Shown: piece by piece, positions 38,035 through 47,436 of the stretch
Layout of the letters: every line of letters starts with the position of its first letter
Position numbering within the stretch: position 1 is the first letter of the stretch
NCBI RefSeq assembly: GCF_014202275.1
Contig: NZ_JACHGF010000016.1
Coordinates: 1-64,000, forward strand
Source: Rhabdobacter roseus
GTDB lineage: Bacteria > Bacteroidota > Bacteroidia > Cytophagales > Spirosomataceae
Direction of reading: 5' to 3'
DNA length: 64,000 bases
Notes under the pieces: model-generated
Told to the model about the DNA's origin: nothing
Databases searched by the model: none
What the model saw: only the letters and a program-made list of their open reading frames with translations
Program-made: the position numbers and the translations under genes

Positions 38035-38655
38035 TCAACGCCCCCCAAAAAAGTAGCTCACCGCCGCCGCTCCCTGAAGCAGGCGCAGGTCAGGGCGGTC
38101 TTCGAGGCCGGTGCCGCTCATCTGGAAGGACGTGAATTTACCCCAGCCCGCGGTGGCGTTGAGCGAGAGGTTGAGCCGGGGCGTGAGGAAGAACCGCAGT
38201 CCGCCCCCCACCGAAAACGTGGCTCCTTTTAGTTTAAATTCATACAGTTCGTTATCGAGCGATACGGGATCGACCACCAGCGACGCGCTGTGAGCGCCTA
38301 CCTCCACGTAGGGGCGTAGCCGCTGCAAAGTACCCCCAAAGTTCACCCTTCCGCCAATCCCAACGGTAGATAGCGCGTAGCGGTCCCAGGCTTCTTTGAT
38401 CAAAAACGAATTCCAGTCGTAACGGGCAAAAAGTTCGTAGCGTTGGTTGAAGCCGTAGCCAGCCTCCAGGCCCAGGCCCGCGCCCAGCGGCTCCAGCTCG
38501 TCGAGGTTCAGGAAGTACTTGGAAGACCAGCTGGCCACGCCCGCGCGCAGGCCCAGGTGCAGGCCTTCCGTGTTGGACCGGACGCTAAGTACCTCCTGGG
38601 CCTGCGCCGCCCACAAAGGTACTACGCAGGCTATGATACAAATGAGGGTTCTCAT
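38035..38655 (-). CDS. Outer membrane beta-barrel protein
   Basis: 206 aa with a signal peptide (about 1-19, CVVPLWAAQAQ). The rest is an alternating-strand sequence with Gly/aromatic turns (GLGLEAGYGFNQRYELFARYDWN, RLRPYVEVGAHSASLVV, SVGGGLRFFLTPRLNLSLNATAGWG). It ends AAVSYFFGGR, an OmpW/PorT-like eight-strand barrel. It sits 6 nt downstream of a membrane Ser/Thr kinase gene and so closes the FHA-protease/phosphatase/kinase operon. Role unknown; structural partner or target of the signalling set is an inference. Confidence 0.75.
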   Translation of the reverse strand: MRTLICIIACVVPLWAAQAQEVLSVRSNTEGLHLGLRAGVASWSSKYFLNLDELEPLGAGLGLEAGYGFNQRYELFARYDWNSFLIKEAWDRYALSTVGIGGRVNFGGTLQRLRPYVEVGAHSASLVVDPVSLDNELYEFKLKGATFSVGGGLRFFLTPRLNLSLNATAGWGKFTSFQMSGTGLEDRPDLRLLQGAAAVSYFFGGR

Positions 38656-38661
38656 GATGGG

Positions 38662-40473
38662 TTAATTAAGGGATTTGATGGTAAGAGAAACGGTACCTAC
38701 TTTGGCACTGATGCGGGTACTTTTGGCAAACTCGACGGCCTGGAGGCTACTGCCACTCCGGCCAATGGGTGGGTTTTTGAGGGGTATCCACTGCCCGTTT
38801 ACCGCCTGTACTTTATCCAATTCAAATTCTAGAAAAGAGCGGCTGTTGCCGGCAGCCGGGCGTACTTTGGTGATGGTACCCGTGGCGGGTGCTCCGGCCG
38901 CAATGACCGTAACGCCCCGGCTCACTACCTCGTTGACCGCCCGAAGCCGCACGCTTTTACCGGCGGCATTAGGTACCTCGGAAGAGAGCGTCTCGACGAG
39001 CTCAAGCAGCACCGGCTCACCCCGTAGCACAATGCGGTGGGTAGATACGGTAGGGGAAATCGGCTTGGCCTCTTCCACCACGGTTTCGGCCTTTTCGGGT
39101 ACTTCGCTTTTCTTTTCCTCTTTCTTCTCCTCCCGAACCGCCACGTTTTCTGCGGGGGTACTTTCCTCTTTCTTAGGCTGTTCCTTTTTTTCGTCGGGTA
39201 CTTTGGTCCGTTCGCGGGCTTTGCGGGGCTCCGGCGCGGGCTCCTCGGGTACCGTGCGTTGTACAATGGGGACGACGCTGAGCGGCGGCTGGGCGGCGTC
39301 CGGCTCCAAACGGGGTACCTCCACCAGCGAGCGGCTGGTGTCGGGCGTCGAAAGGGTTAGCTCCCGAAAGCCGTCGGTTGGTTTCATGATCGGCAACGTG
39401 TCGCTAGGTACCTCCATCGCCTCGGACGCTTTTTTAATGTACTTTTCGCCTACCAGTAAAATCGCCAGGGCGATCAGAACCGCCACGGCCAACACCGCGC
39501 TCTCCGGGCTCAGGAGCTTTCCTTTAGGAATTTGCTTGAAGGGGTTCGTCGTCAGGAAGCGGGGTGGAACTACATCGGAAAACCATTTTTTAGCGGCCGC
39601 CGGGCCCAATAAGACGCGGGTTTGGGGCGGAGCGTACGGCCGCTTGGGTTTGGGGGTACTTTCGCGGGCCAAAGCCACCAGCGCCAGCCGAAGCTCATCA
39701 GCGCTGCCAAATCGTTTTTCGGCTTTTTTGTGCAATAGGCGGGCCAGGATGCTTTCAATACCACGGGGCGGGGCCAGTACTTGCTTGCTGAGCGGAATGG
39801 GGCTTTTATTAACAATGGCCGAAATAAGGGCCGATTCGGTAGTACCCTCAAAGGGTAGTTTACCCGAAAGCAGCTCGTAGAAAAGTACCCCCGCCGCGTA
39901 CAGGTCGGACTGCACGGATGGGTCGCGCCCCTCGATGAGCTCCGGGGCCATGTACTCCAAGGTACCTACCACGTGGTTCATGCGGGTAAGGCGCTGGGCA
40001 CCCACCACGCGGGCTATGCCGAAGTCCATGAGCTTTACTTTTCCCTCGCGCGTCAGCATGAGGTTGGCGGGCTTGATGTCGCGGTGCAGCACGCCCCGGC
40101 TGTGGGCGTGCTGGAGCCCTTCCAGTACCTGCCCCATCAGCAGAAAAGCCTTCTCTACCGACAGCGCCCCACCCTGCCGGAGTAGCTGCTCAAACGTAGG
40201 ACCGTCTACGTACTCCATGATCATGTACCACTGCCCGCCCTGCTGCTGAAAGCTGTACAAATTGGCGATGTTGGGGTGGTTGAGCCGCCCCAGGATGATG
40301 GCCTCGTTGCGGAAACGATCCAGGAACGAGCCGTCGCGCAGGAGGTGGCTGTGCAGTACCTTGATCGCCACCGGGCGATCCAGGGTGGTGTCGGTGCCCC
40401 GGTACACCGTACCCATGCCGCCTTCACCCAGCAGCTCTTCGATCCGGTACTGTTGAATGGATTGCCCGATCAT
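38662..40473 (-). CDS. Membrane Ser/Thr protein kinase
   Basis: 603 aa. The cytoplasmic kinase domain (about 10-270) is complete: glycine loop GEGGMG (16-21), K38 in VAIKVL, HRD at 130-132, DFG at 150-152 and APE at 176-178. One membrane helix lies at about 324-342 (LAVAVLIALAILLVG). The periplasmic part has a long Pro/Glu/Lys-rich linker. Its final beta domain (about 480-603) has the pattern SRGVTVIAAGAPATGTITKV seen in secreted pore- or channel-linked proteins. There are no PASTA repeats. It overlaps the PP2C gene by 4 nt, so kinase and phosphatase are coupled. Ligand and targets unknown; the downstream barrel and upstream FHA-protease are candidates. Confidence 0.9.
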   Translation of the reverse strand: MIGQSIQQYRIEELLGEGGMGTVYRGTDTTLDRPVAIKVLHSHLLRDGSFLDRFRNEAIILGRLNHPNIANLYSFQQQGGQWYMIMEYVDGPTFEQLLRQGGALSVEKAFLLMGQVLEGLQHAHSRGVLHRDIKPANLMLTREGKVKLMDFGIARVVGAQRLTRMNHVVGTLEYMAPELIEGRDPSVQSDLYAAGVLFYELLSGKLPFEGTTESALISAIVNKSPIPLSKQVLAPPRGIESILARLLHKKAEKRFGSADELRLALVALARESTPKPKRPYAPPQTRVLLGPAAAKKWFSDVVPPRFLTTNPFKQIPKGKLLSPESAVLAVAVLIALAILLVGEKYIKKASEAMEVPSDTLPIMKPTDGFRELTLSTPDTSRSLVEVPRLEPDAAQPPLSVVPIVQRTVPEEPAPEPRKARERTKVPDEKKEQPKKEESTPAENVAVREEKKEEKKSEVPEKAETVVEEAKPISPTVSTHRIVLRGEPVLLELVETLSSEVPNAAGKSVRLRAVNEVVSRGVTVIAAGAPATGTITKVRPAAGNSRSFLEFELDKVQAVNGQWIPLKNPPIGRSGSSLQAVEFAKSTRISAKVGTVSLTIKSLN

Positions 40474-41333
40474 AGCACATCAAGTTTTACGGTGGGCCGC
40501 GCCGACTGGAAAGTAGCCGCCGACACGCGTTCCATGAGTAATACGGTAATGTTATCGTGTCCACCGCGCTGTTTGGCCAGCTCAATCATGGCCCGTACGG
40601 CCTCGCTAATGGGCGACAGGTTCATGTGCTCGGCAATTTCTTCTGCGTTGAGGTAGTCGTAGAGCCCGTCGCTGCACAGCAGGAGGCGGTCTTCGCTTTC
40701 GAGGAGCTGCGGAGCCTCGAAGGCGTCGATCTCCACTTGGTTGTGGGTACCCAGGGCGCGGGTCAGGACGTTTCGTTCGGGATGGCTAATGGCTTCGCCC
40801 GGGGTAATTACTCCCTGCTCCACCAGGGTTTGTACGTGCGTATGGTCCGTGGTGAGCTGAAAGAGCTGTCCTTTTTTGAGCAGGTAGAGGCGGCTATCGC
40901 CCACGTGGGCCACATACAAAGTAGCATCCAGAATCGCCACCGCCGTGCAGGTAGTACCCATGCCGCGCTGCCGGGCGTTGCGCCCGGCGGCCTGCCACAC
41001 GGCCCGGTTGGCCCGGGAAAGCGCCAAGTACAGGCTTTCCTCGTTGCTTTCCGTACGCTCGTAGTAGGTTTCGGCTACGAGCTCCACGGCCATCTGGGAG
41101 GCCACCTCCCCGGCCGCGTGGCCACCCATGCCGTCGGCCAGGACGGCCAGGTACCCTTTTTGCTGGCGTACGGCGGGGTCGGTGGGCCGCACAAAGCGGG
41201 CGGCGTCCTCGTTGTTGGTGCGCACACAGCCTACGTCGCTGAGCAGCACCGCCCGCAGGTCCGAGCCCTCCTCCCCGGACGAGCGAAATACCTCCTCTTC
41301 CATCTTCTTTTTTCTTTTTCGATTCCAGAACAT
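40470..41333 (-). CDS. PP2C-type Ser/Thr protein phosphatase
   Basis: 287 aa with the metal-binding motifs of PPM phosphatases: SDVGCVRTNNEDA, DGMGGHAAGE, HVGDSRLYLL, CSDGLYDYL and GHDNITVLL. The N-terminus is basic (MFWNRKRKKKMEEE). It should remove phosphates placed by the adjacent kinase, as in PrpC/PrkC and Stp1/Stk1 pairs. Its stop overlaps the kinase ATG by 4 nt, and the FHA-protease gene ends 36 nt upstream. Confidence 0.93.
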   Translation of the reverse strand: MFWNRKRKKKMEEEVFRSSGEEGSDLRAVLLSDVGCVRTNNEDAARFVRPTDPAVRQQKGYLAVLADGMGGHAAGEVASQMAVELVAETYYERTESNEESLYLALSRANRAVWQAAGRNARQRGMGTTCTAVAILDATLYVAHVGDSRLYLLKKGQLFQLTTDHTHVQTLVEQGVITPGEAISHPERNVLTRALGTHNQVEIDAFEAPQLLESEDRLLLCSDGLYDYLNAEEIAEHMNLSPISEAVRAMIELAKQRGGHDNITVLLMERVSAATFQSARPTVKLDVL

Positions 41334-41369
41334 AACTACCTACGGTTGCCGCTGGGTGAGATAAGCTAC

Positions 41370-43070
41370 TTATTTATTGTTCAAAATCTCCAGGCCGTAC
41401 TTGATGGGAACGGCGTAGGTAATGTGCGGACCGGCCCCCAGTTGCTGTGCAAAGTAGATCCCGATGACGCGCCCGCGGTTGTCGAACATCGGTCCGCCGC
41501 TATTGCCCGGACCGGTGGCATTGATGGTAAGCTGGTAGGCATCGCCCATTTGGCTCATGGTTGGGGCAAACTCCGTCGAGCTCTTGATGAGCTTAGCCAC
41601 GTTGCCGCTCGTCATGGTGGGGTTGGCCATGGAGGTAGTGGCCGAATTAGGCTTGAAGGGGTCGTTGGACTTGCGCACCAGGAACTGCTCCGGCGATGCT
41701 CCTGGGTAGCCCATTACTACTGCCTGGTCTCCTTGTTTGATACTGTCGTAATTATCCAGCAGTTCGACGGGCGCTAGCGGCTTGGCGACGTCAATTTTAA
41801 TAAGGGCCACGTCGTGATTTTGCGAGGCAATGTTCACGACCGCGTCACGGCGGTTGGTAGAGCCCGCAAACACCACTTTCATGCTGTAGGTGCGGCCTTC
41901 TACCTGGCTAGGGTATCCATTGACGTAGCGGGCCTCCGAAGGTACCCACTGCACCTGGCCTTGGTCTACGTAGCCTAGTTTAGCCATTTTCCCGTCGGCG
42001 CCCGCTCCCACCACGATTCCCGGAAAGGCCTCCTGCGGAAACGAGTAGCTCGTCTGCCAGGAGTAGGCCACGTGGCGGTTGGTCATGATGAGGCCGTTTT
42101 CGGAAACCACAAAGCCCGTTCCCCAGCCACCTGCCGCACCGATGGGGATACCCAACTGCGCGTTTTTACTAGTAATAAGGTAGGGTTCAATCTTGCCGTC
42201 GGGTGTTTGCATAAATACCCCGCGTATGGCTTTGCTCCCGTCGGGCATTTTTTCTTCCTGATAAAGCTGCCACAGCGCCTCGCCCGTAGCCGGATCAAAC
42301 AAGCCCCAGGAGGTTTCGATTTTCACTACTTTATCCAGATTCAGGGCGGCAATTTCGGTTTCGGATAGCGGGCTGTTCTCGGCTTTTTGCTTAATCTCGC
42401 CCAGGTTATCCTGCAAACCTTTTATTTCATTCAGTAGCTTACTGTTCGACTCATTGATGGTACTTGCCACCTCTTTTTTGATGTCCTCGGCGTTGGGTTG
42501 GTTTTTCCACATCGTAAATCCAATGGCTCCGAAAATCACTACCGCCGCGGCCATGGCCGTCCAGAGCGTGGTGCGTGACTTGCTGCGCTCGTGGGTAATC
42601 ACCCGCTCAAAGGTATCTTTTCCGATGCCCGCCTTGGGCTCTACGGCCACTACCTCCGGCACGTTGGCCTCGGTGGTAGGCTTGCTCAGGCTCACCATAC
42701 GGGTAGCGGGCATGAGGTCCTGCGGGCGGGGATCTACGTCAAAGACAAAGGTGGGGCCATTGTTGCCAAGCTGTACTTCGTCGCCGGGCATGAGTGTGCT
42801 CGCGCCCTGTACGCGTTTTCCGTTGACAAATAAGCCGTTGCGACTTTCGTTGTCTTCAATCGTAAAGCTGGATGCGGGCGTATTGGCCTTCACGATCCGG
42901 CCGTGCTCCCGGCTCACCATCAGGTCCAGTTCCGGATCGAAGCGAACATGGTTATCGGCCGATCGGCCGAAGGTGAGTTCTTCGAATTTATTGAAATCAA
43001 ATTCTTCGGTTTGGTTGGCCTTGGTACCGGAAAGGTGCCTGATCACAAATTTTTGAATAGAAGCTGCCAT
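41370..43070 (-). CDS. FHA-domain membrane trypsin-like serine protease
   Basis: 566 aa. The N-terminal FHA domain (about 5-110; TFGRSADNHV, SREHGRIV, NGLFVNGKRV) binds phosphothreonine peptides in the cytoplasm. A membrane helix (about 165-188, WTAMAAAVVIFGAIGFT) leads to a periplasmic trypsin-like domain. Its catalytic triad is intact: H333 in TNRHVAY, D420 in NHDVALIKI and S524 in GPGNSGGPMFD. No PDZ domain is present, unlike DegP. First gene of a four-gene operon with PP2C, Ser/Thr kinase and a barrel. The FHA could read the phosphorylation state set by the kinase and tie it to proteolysis in the envelope; this is inferred from layout. Confidence 0.9.
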   Translation of the reverse strand: MAASIQKFVIRHLSGTKANQTEEFDFNKFEELTFGRSADNHVRFDPELDLMVSREHGRIVKANTPASSFTIEDNESRNGLFVNGKRVQGASTLMPGDEVQLGNNGPTFVFDVDPRPQDLMPATRMVSLSKPTTEANVPEVVAVEPKAGIGKDTFERVITHERSKSRTTLWTAMAAAVVIFGAIGFTMWKNQPNAEDIKKEVASTINESNSKLLNEIKGLQDNLGEIKQKAENSPLSETEIAALNLDKVVKIETSWGLFDPATGEALWQLYQEEKMPDGSKAIRGVFMQTPDGKIEPYLITSKNAQLGIPIGAAGGWGTGFVVSENGLIMTNRHVAYSWQTSYSFPQEAFPGIVVGAGADGKMAKLGYVDQGQVQWVPSEARYVNGYPSQVEGRTYSMKVVFAGSTNRRDAVVNIASQNHDVALIKIDVAKPLAPVELLDNYDSIKQGDQAVVMGYPGASPEQFLVRKSNDPFKPNSATTSMANPTMTSGNVAKLIKSSTEFAPTMSQMGDAYQLTINATGPGNSGGPMFDNRGRVIGIYFAQQLGAGPHITYAVPIKYGLEILNNK

Positions 43071-43268: not shown

Positions 43269-45092
43269 ATGCTCGTCAGGTACCTGCTGTGTAGTATCCT
43301 TATCGCCTCTGAAGTATCTTCTACTCAGGCACAAAACCCTACGCTGGATACGCTGATAGGGAAGATAGGCCGCCTACGGCACGAAAACGCCAGCCTGAGC
43401 CGGGACACGACGCTGATCCTCACGCTGAGCCTGCTGACCGAGCGGCTCTACAACCAGAACAACCCCCAGGCCGACGCCTACCTGGATACGCTCCAAACGA
43501 CCACCCGCCAGCTGCCATGGGCCAAAGGGGAGGGGCTGTACCTACGGGCGCTGGGCAAGAAACACGACGTGCAGGGAAAGTACCCCGTGGCGTTCGACTA
43601 CTACTCACAGGCCATTGCGGCGCTGGAAAAAGTGGGCGGCGATCCCTACGAGCTTACGTACGCCTACATACTAGCGGCTTTTGTGCTCAACAACAACGGC
43701 ATGACCGACAAATGCATCACCTACCTGCAAAAGGCCCTGCCGCTGGCGCGAAGTACCCACAACACCAACAACCTCTGCTGGATACTGGACTTCTTTGGCG
43801 ACTACAACTACTACGATTCGTTTGGGGTGCGGAATTACCGCAAGGCCCTCTACTACTATAAGGAAGTTGAAAAGTACCTGCCCCGCTCTACCAGCCCTAA
43901 CCTGCAGGCCGACAACCCCCACGGCCTAGCCAACTGCTACCTGCGGCTGGGCGACGAAAAGAAGGCTGAAGCGTACCGAAATAAAGCGCTGGAGGTAGCC
44001 CGGAAAATCAATAACCGGGTGGTGATTTTTGCGATCTATGCCGACCTGGCCGCCATCCACGAAGATAAAGCGGAGTACGCCCAGGCCATTGCCTACCGAC
44101 AGCAGAGCCTGGACTTTGCGCGGCAGTCGGGCTGGAAAGAGATGGAATCTCGGGCCGAAAACTACCTGTATCAAACCTACAAGCGGGCGGGCGACTACCG
44201 CAATGCGCTGAGGTACTTTGAGCAGCACAAAGCCCACGAAGACAGCCTGGGCCGCTATGACGTACAAAAACAGTACGCCGAGCTGCAAACCCGCTACCAG
44301 GCCGAAAAGCAGCAGCTGCGTATTCAGGAACTGGAAAACGAAAGCCTGATTCAGCTGCGCAATTTTTTGGGGCTGTCGTTGCTGCTGGGGGTACTTGTGC
44401 TTAGCGTCGTAGGCTGGACCAACCGCCGCCTCCGGGCCAAAAATGAATTGCTGCTCACCAAAACCCGGGAGATTGAAGAGGCCCAGGCCCGCGGCCAGAC
44501 CCTGGAGCGCAAGCGCGTGGCCGGGGAGCTGCACGACAACCTGAATACGAAGGTGGCGGCGATTCGGTGGCGGCTGGAAGCCATGAGCAAAAAAGGCTGG
44601 ACGCCGCTGGACCAGAAAATTCACGGGGAGCTGCTGGGCATGATGAACGACGTGTACGCTGACATCCGGCTGATTTCCCACAACCTGCTCCCGGTGGAGC
44701 TGGAAACCCAGGGGTTGTCATCGGCCCTCCAAAAGCTCGTGGCCACGCTCAACGCCAGCAACCGGATAAAGTTTTACTACGTAGGGAGCGGCCAGGAGCA
44801 GCGGCTATCGCCCCACCTGGAGCATCAGCTCTATAGCGTGGCCCTGGAACTCGTCAACAACATCATCAAGCATTCTAAGGCCCAGAAAGCCTGGATCAGC
44901 TTAACGTACCAGTCCGAAGCCACCATCCTGACCGTAAGCGACAACGGCGTGGGCTTCGACACCCAGGCCTATGCCGAAGGCGTGGGCCTGCGCAACATCA
45001 GTACCCGCGTCGAGAGCCTGAAGGGTACCTGGCAGGTAGACAGCAAGCCTGCCCTGGGTACCAAAATCATCGTGGAGGTACCTACCACTTAG
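43269..45092 (+). CDS. TPR-containing membrane histidine kinase (HisKA_3)
   Basis: 607 aa. Signal peptide about 1-21 (EVSSTQAQ). Periplasmic TPR repeats run from about 40 to 355 (YPVAFDYYSQAIAALEKVGG, CITYLQKALPLARST, YAQAIAYRQQSLDFARQSG). A membrane helix (about 365-385, LGLSLLLGVLVLSVVGW) precedes the kinase: the HisKA_3 phospho-acceptor is H422 in RVAGELHDNLN, and the ATPase has ELVNNIIKHSKA and DNGVGFD. This class pairs with NarL/LuxR-type regulators, and one lies tail-to-tail 12 nt away. The TPR part probably senses a protein or peptide in the periplasm. Confidence 0.92.
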   Translation: MLVRYLLCSILIASEVSSTQAQNPTLDTLIGKIGRLRHENASLSRDTTLILTLSLLTERLYNQNNPQADAYLDTLQTTTRQLPWAKGEGLYLRALGKKHDVQGKYPVAFDYYSQAIAALEKVGGDPYELTYAYILAAFVLNNNGMTDKCITYLQKALPLARSTHNTNNLCWILDFFGDYNYYDSFGVRNYRKALYYYKEVEKYLPRSTSPNLQADNPHGLANCYLRLGDEKKAEAYRNKALEVARKINNRVVIFAIYADLAAIHEDKAEYAQAIAYRQQSLDFARQSGWKEMESRAENYLYQTYKRAGDYRNALRYFEQHKAHEDSLGRYDVQKQYAELQTRYQAEKQQLRIQELENESLIQLRNFLGLSLLLGVLVLSVVGWTNRRLRAKNELLLTKTREIEEAQARGQTLERKRVAGELHDNLNTKVAAIRWRLEAMSKKGWTPLDQKIHGELLGMMNDVYADIRLISHNLLPVELETQGLSSALQKLVATLNASNRIKFYYVGSGQEQRLSPHLEHQLYSVALELVNNIIKHSKAQKAWISLTYQSEATILTVSDNGVGFDTQAYAEGVGLRNISTRVESLKGTWQVDSKPALGTKIIVEVPTT

Positions 45093-45104: not shown

Positions 45105-45752
45105 TTACAGAAGCTTGTACTTCAACGCATACTTAATGATACCGATGACGTTCTTGGCCCCCAGCTTCCGCATGATGTTGTGCCGGTGCGTCTCGACGGT
45201 ACCCACGCTGATAAACAGCTTATCTGCGATCTCCGACGTAGAAAGCTCCTGGGCGATGAGCCGCACAATTTCCAGCTCCCGCCGGGTGAGCTGCACAAAA
45301 TCCGTGGTGTACTCTTCGTCCGCTTCCTGTCGCCCGGCCGTCAGCAGCTCTTTCATCACGGCTTCACCAAAGTACTTTTGTCCGCTGGCTACGGTGCGCA
45401 GGGCTTTTTCCAGCTCCGCCCGCTCGGCCTTTTTCATCACGTAGCCCGACACCCCCGCCCGGTAGGCATCCTGGATGGGGTCCAGGTCGTCGGCCACGGT
45501 GAGCATCAGTATTTTCAGGTCGGGGTACTTTTGCCGGAGCTGCAGCGTCAGCTGGATGCCGTCCAGGTAGGGCATGGTGAGGTCGGTGATCAGTACATCC
45601 ACCGGATAAGCCTCCAGGTAGGCGGCCACTTTCCGGCTGTCGTTGAGGGTACCTACTACATTAACACCTTCCAAGGTACCTATCAGGAGGGAGAGGCTAT
45701 CCAAAATGATCTGGTGGTCGTCTACCAGCAGTACGTCGATGGGCGAGGGCAT
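45105..45752 (-). CDS. NarL/FixJ-family response regulator
   Basis: 215 aa. Receiver with DD at 11-12 and acceptor D57 in VDVLITDLTMPYLDG, the conserved Lys in GYVMKKAE, and a LuxR-type helix-turn-helix near the end (LTRRELEIVRLIAQELSTSE, GTVETHRHNIMRKL). It converges on the TPR histidine kinase gene, so the two form a likely cognate pair read from opposite strands. The target genes are not evident here. Confidence 0.92.
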   Translation of the reverse strand: MPSPIDVLLVDDHQIILDSLSLLIGTLEGVNVVGTLNDSRKVAAYLEAYPVDVLITDLTMPYLDGIQLTLQLRQKYPDLKILMLTVADDLDPIQDAYRAGVSGYVMKKAERAELEKALRTVASGQKYFGEAVMKELLTAGRQEADEEYTTDFVQLTRRELEIVRLIAQELSTSEIADKLFISVGTVETHRHNIMRKLGAKNVIGIIKYALKYKLL

Positions 45753-45975: not shown

Positions 45976-47436
45976 ATGTACGATAAAAGCCTAGGAACAA
46001 AACAGAAAGCCCTGCGGATCAACCTGGATCGACGCATGTACGGCTCTTTTGCGGAGATCGGTGCCGGGCAGGAAACCGCCTCGCTCTTTTTTCGGGCCGG
46101 TGGTGCTTCGGGGACCATCGCCAAGACCATGTCCGCCTACGACATGGCCTTCAGCGACGCCATTTACGGTACCGAAACCAGCGGGCGCTACGTCTGTGAA
46201 TCAAGGCTCACGAAGATGCTGGATAAGGAGTACAGCCTGGTGGAAAAACGCCTGGCCGAGCAGCGGGGCGTCGATAGCCTCTTTTTTGCTTTTGCCAATA
46301 CCGTGGTGGCCCTCAACTACCAGAAGACCAACGAACCGCACGGCTGGATTGGCCTGCGGTTTCAGCTGCGGCCTTTGGGGCCTTATAATGACGTAGTGAT
46401 CCACGTGCGCATGCTCGACAACGAGAACGTACTACAGCAGCAGGCGCTGGGGATTATCGGCGTCAACCTCATCCACGGTTGTTTTTACTACCATAAATCG
46501 CCCGAAACGCTGTTGCTGTCGCTCATGGACGACCTCAACCCTGACCGCATCGAGATTGACATGATCCGGTTCAGCGGGCCCGACTTCGTGCACGTCGACA
46601 ACCGGCTCATGAGCCTCCACCTGGTGAAGAACGGTTTCACGGGGGCGGCCGTATTTGGGGCCGACGGAGGGGTACTTCAGCCGTCGGAAGCCTTTTACAA
46701 AAAACACATCCTGCTTATGCGCGGGCGGCTGCGGCCCATTACCAACGTGCACGTGGACCTGATCAGCAACGGGCAGAAGCAATTTCTGGCCGAGCCCGAC
46801 GTGGAGCCCGACCGCGTACTGCTGGTGTCGGAGCTGACGCTGCATAACCTCAAGGCCGACGACCGGGAGATCGACGAAAAGGATTTCCTCGACCGCGTGG
46901 ATATCCTGTGTTCGCTGGGCCATACGGTGATGATCTCCAGCTACCACCATTACTTCCGGCTGGTGGCCTACCTGTCGCGCCTCACACGCCTCAAGATCGG
47001 GCTACTGCTGGGCATTCCTAGTTTGCAGGATATTTTTGACGAAAAACACTACGAGCAGCTACCCAGCGGGATTCTGGAGTCGTTTGCGACGCTCTTTAGC
47101 CGCAAGGTGAAGCTGTTTATCTACCCCACGTTGCAGGCCGACGACTCCATCTACAACTGCGAGAACTTCACCCTTCCCGACCACCTGCGCCCGCTCTACC
47201 AGTATTTGGTACTGAATGATAAAATTGAAGACATTCGAAACTACAACGTAGAGTCGATGCGCTGGACCACCGACCAGGTACTGGCCAAAATCAAGCGCGG
47301 TGAGCCGGGCTGGGAAACCCTGGTACCCGAAAGCGTGGCCCAGATCATCAAGGAGCGCTGCCTCTTTGGGTACCCCTGCGACGTCCACTATCCCAACGTC
47401 GTCAACCAGATCCATCAGATCGTGGGAAATTTATGA
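45976..47436 (+). CDS. Conserved protein of unknown function, 486 aa
   Basis: I recall highly similar proteins in unrelated bacteria, carrying conflicting automatic names, but know no proven function. No signal peptide or membrane helix. Conserved-looking blocks are GTKQKALRINLDRRMYGSFA near the N-terminus, IGAGQETASLFFRAGGASGT, CESRLTKML, FAFANTVVALNY and NEPHGWIGLRFQ. The C-terminal half has SELTLHNLKADDREID and HTVMISSYHHYFRLVAYL. The pattern of small dense motifs suggests an enzyme. It stands alone, with a strong terminator 23 nt after it. Names such as TonB receptor or NMN adenylyltransferase sometimes applied to it do not fit what is seen. Confidence 0.75.
   Translation: MYDKSLGTKQKALRINLDRRMYGSFAEIGAGQETASLFFRAGGASGTIAKTMSAYDMAFSDAIYGTETSGRYVCESRLTKMLDKEYSLVEKRLAEQRGVDSLFFAFANTVVALNYQKTNEPHGWIGLRFQLRPLGPYNDVVIHVRMLDNENVLQQQALGIIGVNLIHGCFYYHKSPETLLLSLMDDLNPDRIEIDMIRFSGPDFVHVDNRLMSLHLVKNGFTGAAVFGADGGVLQPSEAFYKKHILLMRGRLRPITNVHVDLISNGQKQFLAEPDVEPDRVLLVSELTLHNLKADDREIDEKDFLDRVDILCSLGHTVMISSYHHYFRLVAYLSRLTRLKIGLLLGIPSLQDIFDEKHYEQLPSGILESFATLFSRKVKLFIYPTLQADDSIYNCENFTLPDHLRPLYQYLVLNDKIEDIRNYNVESMRWTTDQVLAKIKRGEPGWETLVPESVAQIIKERCLFGYPCDVHYPNVVNQIHQIVGNL

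Follow-up and report, generated by a model that had tools for sequence, protein, structure and literature searches.

Here we analysed a 64-kb window of Rhabdobacter roseus DNA (the whole stretch, positions 1 to 64,000 of the forward strand of contig NZ_JACHGF010000016.1, assembly GCF_014202275.1), which carries an operon whose products may form a phosphorylation-controlled membrane protease. All four genes lie on the minus strand. The first encodes a 566-amino-acid membrane protease with an FHA domain, a transmembrane (TM) segment and a trypsin-type domain of predicted HtrA fold (41370-43070; from the open reading frame (ORF), Pfam, alignment and a structural model). It is followed by an Stp1-type PP2C phosphatase of 287 amino acids (40470-41333; Pfam and NCBIfam), a 603-amino-acid Ser/Thr kinase with one TM segment and a periplasmic VirB10-like domain (38662-40473; Pfam and model), and an accessory outer-membrane beta-barrel protein of 206 amino acids (38035-38655; Pfam, with a signal-like N-terminus by eye). 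An earlier sequence-only reading had described four same-direction genes with gaps of 36, -4 and 6 nt, and on recomputation the intergenic distances are identical.

The FHA-protease matches FHA at 55.3 bits (cut-off 20.7) and Trypsin_2 at 81 bits (cut-off 27.6). Its FHA domain spans residues 33-102 (42765-42974; Pfam and alignment), with G35, R36, R54, H56, S76 and N78 invariant in all 38 aligned relatives. The triad of H333, D420 and S524 is likewise invariant (38/38), as is T123. In the AlphaFold2 model, which has a mean predicted local distance difference test score (pLDDT) of 85.6, the FHA domain leads into a low-confidence linker (residues 123-151), a helix that holds the TM segment (151-189), a second helix (194-231) and then the periplasmic protease domain (237-566, 41373-42362; Pfam, alignment and model). 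Hydropathy gives a single TM segment at residues 169-187 (42510-42566), within the modelled helix. T123 begins a linker stretch with a modelled pLDDT below 50 and belongs to T123-R-M (42696-42704; alignment and model), a Thr-Arg-hydrophobic, or TR-hydrophobic, motif. The helix and the retained triad bear out the earlier description of an FHA domain joined through a helix to an active-site-complete trypsin-like protease. Just before the TM helix, T153 is also invariant (38/38); it lies in a G-K-x-T motif (residues 150-155, window 42606-42623) and is a possible further phosphosite. The protease is predicted to have an HtrA fold without PDZ: VIA-align matched the domain to the HtrA proteases DegP, DegS, HtrA1 and HhoA at Z 23-25 (best 50 rows), the Pfam scan found no PDZ match, and the protease domain extends to the end of the model.

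In two loci (L057 and L058) the FHA-TM front leads into a periplasmic domain unrelated to the protease, and PP2C, kinase and barrel are retained. The Pfam matches of these exchanged-type proteins (L057:7641-9335 and L058:9452-11146) are all FHA-type apart from a single adaptin match below threshold, and the C-terminal 349 residues of the L057 protein gave zero matches when searched against PDB sequences. From the spacing of Cys and His residues, judged by eye, the exchanged domain reads like a transglutaminase or papain-like thiol enzyme, an identity that is not established. A 213-residue protein occupies the place of the first kinase in both loci. In genome G427, a relative of the exchanged domain with no match to the FHA profiles adjoins a relative of this 213-residue protein, and the remaining operon profiles match nothing in that stretch; the arrangement suggests domain exchange. 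That L057 and L058 keep the FHA-TM front and differ in the periplasmic enzyme fits a protein whose front exerts control and whose back is the effector.

The phosphatase matches PP2C_2 at 68.3 bits (cut-off 24) and exceeds the cut-off of the Stp1/IreP model NF033484 (255.6 vs 230 bits). The kinase domain (residues 9-257, 39703-40449; Pfam) matches Pkinase at 201.9 bits (cut-off 31.7), with K38, D132, N137 and D150 invariant (25/25). The juxtamembrane linker contains a second TR-hydrophobic motif, T285-R-V (39613-39621; motif scan), and is followed by one TM segment at residues 324-342 (39448-39504; hydropathy), in agreement with the proposal that the kinase spans the membrane. It was also said to be without PASTA repeats, and this stands: the kinase scores below the cut-off of the PASTA-kinase model NF033483 (321.9 vs 450 bits), the match is confined to the kinase part (residues 8-278), and the Pfam scan found no PASTA repeats.

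Beyond the membrane the kinase continues into a Pro/Glu/Lys-rich linker of 138 residues with 14% Pro (39034-39447); the linker is 94-163 residues long, with a median of 118, in 48 relatives, and if fully extended could cross the periplasm. The domain behind it (about residues 477-603, 38665-39045) had been noted as unusual, to which a structure search now adds a predicted VirB10/TrbI-like beta fold. Pfam gives zero matches at E ≤ 0.1 for the periplasmic end of the window kinase. Across 42 relatives, 7 match TrbI at E ≤ 0.1, weakly (best 8.5e-4), and the other Pfam matches are also weak, many of them single chance ones; a PDB sequence search with the C-terminal profile gave 0 matches at E ≤ 1. 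A 135-residue model built from the 42 relatives consists of strands only, with a mean pLDDT of 96.1. Foldseek ranks 1-20 are all type IV secretion system (T4SS) core-complex or ComB10 chains (CagY or VirB10-type where named), with probabilities of 0.99-1.00, query TM-scores of 0.36-0.56 and a best E of 9.8e-4, the sole one below 0.001. VIA-align gave Z 9.5, 9.3 and 9.2 for 8rt6, 6gyb and 3jqo, with root-mean-square deviations of 3.4-3.6 over 117-118 residues. Because VIA-align often gives Z 7-8 to models that have no clear match, the weight of the likeness rests on the gap between the VirB10-type rows (Z 9.2-9.6) and the first unrelated fold (Z 4.0), and on the single family that fills the top rows. 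On these predicted structures, the periplasmic end of the kinase is similar in fold to the C-terminal domain of VirB10 from type IV secretion systems. A profile search found the domain once in the whole genome, and Pfam found no T4SS genes among the nine window genes scanned (36.7-47.4 kb).

Kinases of other phyla do not match the VirB10-like profile and end in a Pro-rich tail that closes with a short conserved stretch, or in other sequences. We take the kinase to be a constant part with a putatively exchangeable sensor. In four loci (L092, L094, L109 and L116) a Pro-rich stretch of the kinase C-terminus is followed by a short similar tail, of ALDQ or LLDQ type, and this tail may be a docking peptide.

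To ask how far the operon extends beyond this genome, we searched three samples. Among 150 genomes of the same family (own included), a near full-length trypsin-type FHA-protease occurs in 27, and two more carry the exchanged type (L057 and L058); the remaining matches among the 64 family genomes reported are short and consist of the protease or FHA core alone. In the order sample at least 7 of 291 genomes have the FHA-protease (E ≤ 1e-20), and in the phylum sample at least 8 of 395 (E ≤ 1e-40), both lower bounds because the first three or four candidates per genome were scored. A scan of named genomes yielded 146 FHA-protease relatives; the 80 best of these were taken as loci. By genome name, the Bacteroidota loci include Emticicia, Dyadobacter, Runella, Fibrella, Spirosoma, Larkinella, Arundinibacter, Ferruginibacter, Saprospiraceae, Aequorivita, Terrimonas and Tannerella, and the others include Acidobacteria, Chloracidobacterium, Gemmatimonadetes and Armatimonadetes. 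All loci outside Bacteroidota are, by genome name, metagenome-assembled genomes, and isolated names such as L131 (Methylothermaceae) or L109 (Actinomycetota, on a contig named WN_Acidobacteria) are possibly binning errors.

Initial scoring of the 80 loci, passing over unlabelled opposite-strand ORFs below 330 amino acids as probably spurious, gave 67 with the FHA-protease followed by PP2C and kinase, 9 cut by the contig end and 4 apparently incomplete. In three of the four (L088, L090, L091) PP2C is present, and in L123 it is fused to the first kinase. All 71 uncut loci (among the best 80 of 146) therefore carry the FHA-protease, PP2C and kinase functions, the last kinase itself being truncated by the contig end in some. 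In the 9 cut loci the contig stops within 3.5 kb of the FHA gene and the full set is absent; the next gene is a kinase in 6 and PP2C in 2, and in 1 there is nothing before the contig end. Because the three genes recur in 71/71 uncut loci, their association is beyond chance. Distances of the protease, PP2C and kinase domain correlate over 62 loci (Mantel r 0.62, 0.77 and 0.85, reached in 0 of 2000 permutations), a correlation that species descent alone would also give. The co-occurrence outside this genome on which the sequence-only reading depended is thus found in several phyla by genome name, and FHA-protease, PP2C and kinase form a conserved unit. An extra kinase lies between the FHA-protease and PP2C in 36 of the 67 loci, and the other 31 have none, as in the window. 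The first kinase of L108, L116, L126 and L135, where a kinase precedes PP2C, has by eye its own hydrophobic segment and a small C-terminal PEGA-like domain.

The conserved order does not extend to the fourth gene. The window barrel matches OMP_b-brl at 43.2 bits (cut-off 28.7), and by profile a barrel adjoins the operon in 26 of the 80 loci, all Spirosomaceae or Saprospirales as placed from genome names. The 54 loci with no barrel beside the operon rule it out as a core component and speak against its proposed role as a general target or anchor; in 17 of the barrel-less loci, reading of the gene ends by eye found no obvious barrel in the next genes. The barrel-bearing versions are linked to a TPR histidine kinase, which in the window is divergent (43269-45092, plus strand) and adjoins a LuxR-type response regulator (45105-45752, minus strand; both from Pfam and the neighbourhood scan). 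A match of this type above 140 bits lies in the flank of 24 of the 26 barrel loci vs 2 of the 54 barrel-less ones, both Dyadobacter, in a comparison where flank lengths differ and some contigs are short. Chance proximity is unlikely because the window genome has 12 HisKA_3 kinases in 6.9 Mb, and part of the pattern is due to common descent. In Spirosomaceae this histidine kinase usually lies upstream and is divergent, and in Saprospirales it usually lies downstream on the same strand; L075 and L101 are exceptions. A strong response-regulator match was not seen at every such locus.

The TR-hydrophobic motif occurs on both membrane proteins of the core. We compared 53 dereplicated juxtamembrane linkers, from the 64 with a TM segment among 68 kinases, with 36 dereplicated FHA linkers (73 of 81 proteins parsed, one of the other proteins being left out by hand). 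TRL is the commonest 3-mer in the kinase linkers, and TR[LVIMF] is found in 30 of the 53 with 48 copies (shuffle mean 3.5 proteins, maximum 11 in 2000). In the FHA linkers it is found in 32 of 36 (shuffle mean 3.8, maximum 11). The wider pattern T[RKQ][LVIMF] is found in 35 of 36 (shuffle mean 9.8, maximum 20), with two or more copies in 18 of 36. TR[LVIMF] is not enriched in the second kinase (3/31, 4.5 expected), the PP2C C-ends (4/49, 2.9 expected) or N-ends (0/56, 2.4 expected), or unrelated TM kinases of the order (1/20, 0.9 expected). These 20 controls came from 30 loci: two loci were dropped (own genome and one system operon), and the others missing from the set lacked a usable linker. 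The controls are not dereplicated and include some near-duplicates. Fisher's test of 30/53 vs 1/20 gives p = 4e-5, which is a guide only, as the pattern was chosen after some of the sequences had been seen and the relatives are non-independent. The shared motif suggests where FHA may dock.

We propose that the operon encodes a phosphorylation-controlled membrane protease, in which the kinase phosphorylates the TR motifs, FHA binding positions the periplasmic protease or switches it, and PP2C returns the system to its starting state, with a probability of roughly 0.55. The VirB10-like periplasmic domain would sense the state of the envelope and set the activity of the cytoplasmic kinase, which would then phosphorylate threonines in the TR-hydrophobic motifs of its own juxtamembrane linker and of the linker behind the FHA domain. 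FHA would bind the phosphothreonine either on the kinase, in trans, or on its own linker, in cis, and this binding would rearrange or cluster the single-pass protease. The HtrA-fold domain across the membrane could thereby be switched on or off, and PP2C would strip the phosphates. The proposal is based on gene content and order, active-site conservation, predicted folds, motif enrichment and correlated divergence; we infer motif phosphorylation, FHA binding, the direction of the signal, the signal sensed and the protease substrate. Because the conserved three-gene unit keeps its active-site residues, phosphorylation inside coupled to periplasmic proteolysis, as first suggested from the sequence, is still the best reading, shorn of the part assigned to the barrel. 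A narrower version, in which the kinase reaches towards the outer membrane on its VirB10-like chassis, reads the state of the barrel and controls periplasmic proteolysis from the inside out through FHA docking, is tentative.

Several points weigh against the proposal of a phosphorylation-controlled protease. The distribution is patchy, with 27 of 150 trypsin-type and 2 exchanged-type genomes in the family and at least 8 of 395 in the phylum sample. The wording of the motif was set after part of the data had been seen, and the exact motif is missing from 23 of the 53 kinase linkers, of which 10 are by genome name from Chitinophagaceae or Aequorivita and the others include Spirosoma, Larkinella, Tannerella, Saprospirales and one Acidobacteriota. 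It is present in 19 of 40 Bacteroidota kinase linkers vs 11 of 13 assigned to other phyla by genome name. Kinases of other phyla have no match to the VirB10-like profile, and therefore the thing sensed must differ there.

The signal could also run in the reverse direction, with FHA docking the protease on the autophosphorylated kinase so that the protease trims the Pro-rich linker or the VirB10-like domain and ends or starts signalling. Since the kinase linker bears the same motif, FHA could bind there, and both proteins are single-pass by hydropathy, with a long Pro-rich periplasmic linker on the kinase. However, no common cleavage site is apparent, because the periplasmic parts of other-phyla kinases differ while the protease is conserved, and we consider this direction doubtful. 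Envelope quality control, in which the protease would degrade misfolded periplasmic or outer-membrane proteins in general, as HtrA proteases do, and FHA would only recruit it to kinase foci with no catalytic switch, appears less probable again. It would suit the HtrA fold, matched at Z 23-25 to DegP, DegS, HtrA1 and HhoA, and the barrel gene and TPR histidine kinase linked in some lineages, but the Pfam scan gave no PDZ match, and so strict a link to kinase and PP2C points to a regulatory role more than to a housekeeping one. That the genes are simply neighbours acting apart, as the lineage-limited link (26/80) might suggest for the barrel alone, is highly improbable and for the three core genes is contradicted by the 71/71 uncut loci, the several phyla by genome name and the correlated divergence.

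The preferred reading, a protease controlled by phosphorylation, draws on parts that each resemble a known system. DegS, which acts in a stress pathway, is likewise a periplasmic protease with a single TM segment, and HtrA proteases choose their substrates through PDZ domains. The FHA-protease shares the trypsin-like fold and intact triad of the HtrA/Deg proteases (DegS, DegP, HtrA1), but it has no PDZ match, carries a cytoplasmic FHA domain and a TR-motif linker, is encoded with a kinase and PP2C, and scores far below the family models (49.8 vs 416.2 bits for TIGR02037, the Do family, and 18.7 vs 422.95 bits for TIGR02038). Its best NCBIfam match is MarP of mycobacteria (NF033740, 54.5 bits vs a cut-off of 250). 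MarP is a membrane-anchored periplasmic trypsin-like protease with several TM helices, whereas the FHA-protease has a single TM helix and an FHA domain. A Hanks-type TM kinase beside an Stp1-type PP2C, with an FHA partner, is also the arrangement of Stk1/PknB and Stp1 with FHA proteins such as GarA, OdhI and FhaB; here, however, there is no PASTA, the FHA partner is itself a TM protease and the periplasmic domain is VirB10-like. In the GarA/OdhI switch, FHA closes on a phosphothreonine in the same chain, and a motif placed both on the kinase and behind the FHA domain recalls the logic of that switch. VirB10 has a Pro-rich periplasmic linker, and the kinase has in common with VirB10/TrbI/CagY a cytoplasmic start, a TM segment, such a linker and a C-terminal beta domain. 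It differs in that its N-terminus is a protein kinase, the 135-residue model has no helix and thus no VirB10 antenna, and these 135 residues compare with about 190-220 in the matched chains.

The kinase-kinase-phosphatase (KKP) module of Pf prophages combines Hanks kinases and PP2C with an FHA domain in a single operon (PMC11341870); the window operon encodes a single kinase, and there the FHA domain sits on the protease. In a search of the open-licence literature we found no description of an FHA-protease with a kinase and PP2C, or of a VirB10-like kinase. Taken singly, the parts are all of known kinds; what is new, as far as that literature goes, is the combination of a protease linked through the membrane to an FHA head with a kinase bearing a VirB10-like tail. 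We know of no route by which cytoplasmic phosphorylation controls a periplasmic protease, and Ser/Thr kinase signalling in these Gram-negative phyla has, to our knowledge, been little studied. The core is present in Bacteroidota and at least three other phyla by genome name, and the predicted docking motif, triad and sensor fold make it testable by a few point mutants. If true, a kinase on a VirB10-like chassis would suggest that T4SS trans-envelope architecture has been reused for signalling.

Other neighbours of the operon, from Pfam and the ORF list, are a type III pantothenate kinase and a GGACT protein, and a GH2-like enzyme was identified from reading of the ORF only. A 486-residue ORF at window 45976-47436 has zero Pfam matches at E ≤ 0.1. 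A sigma-70 promoter scan found 0 sites vs 2.2 expected, and a Bacteroidota-type promoter pattern gave 2 window matches vs 1.13 expected, neither of which precedes the operon. With PADLOC, run on the four operon proteins, the kinase strongly matches PD-T4-6 kinase models (best 308.9 bits), and PP2C (42.9) and the protease (37.7) have weaker matches; we take these defence matches to reflect common kinase, PP2C and protease folds, and regard a defence role as the less probable reading. Upstream of the FHA-protease, at least 10 of the first 28 neighbourhoods have an ABC exporter and a protein of about 450 residues, which has zero Pfam matches over cut-off. The pair precedes the FHA-protease at L031:11335-14500 and at the equivalent positions in Emticicia, Runella, Arundinibacter and Dyadobacter.

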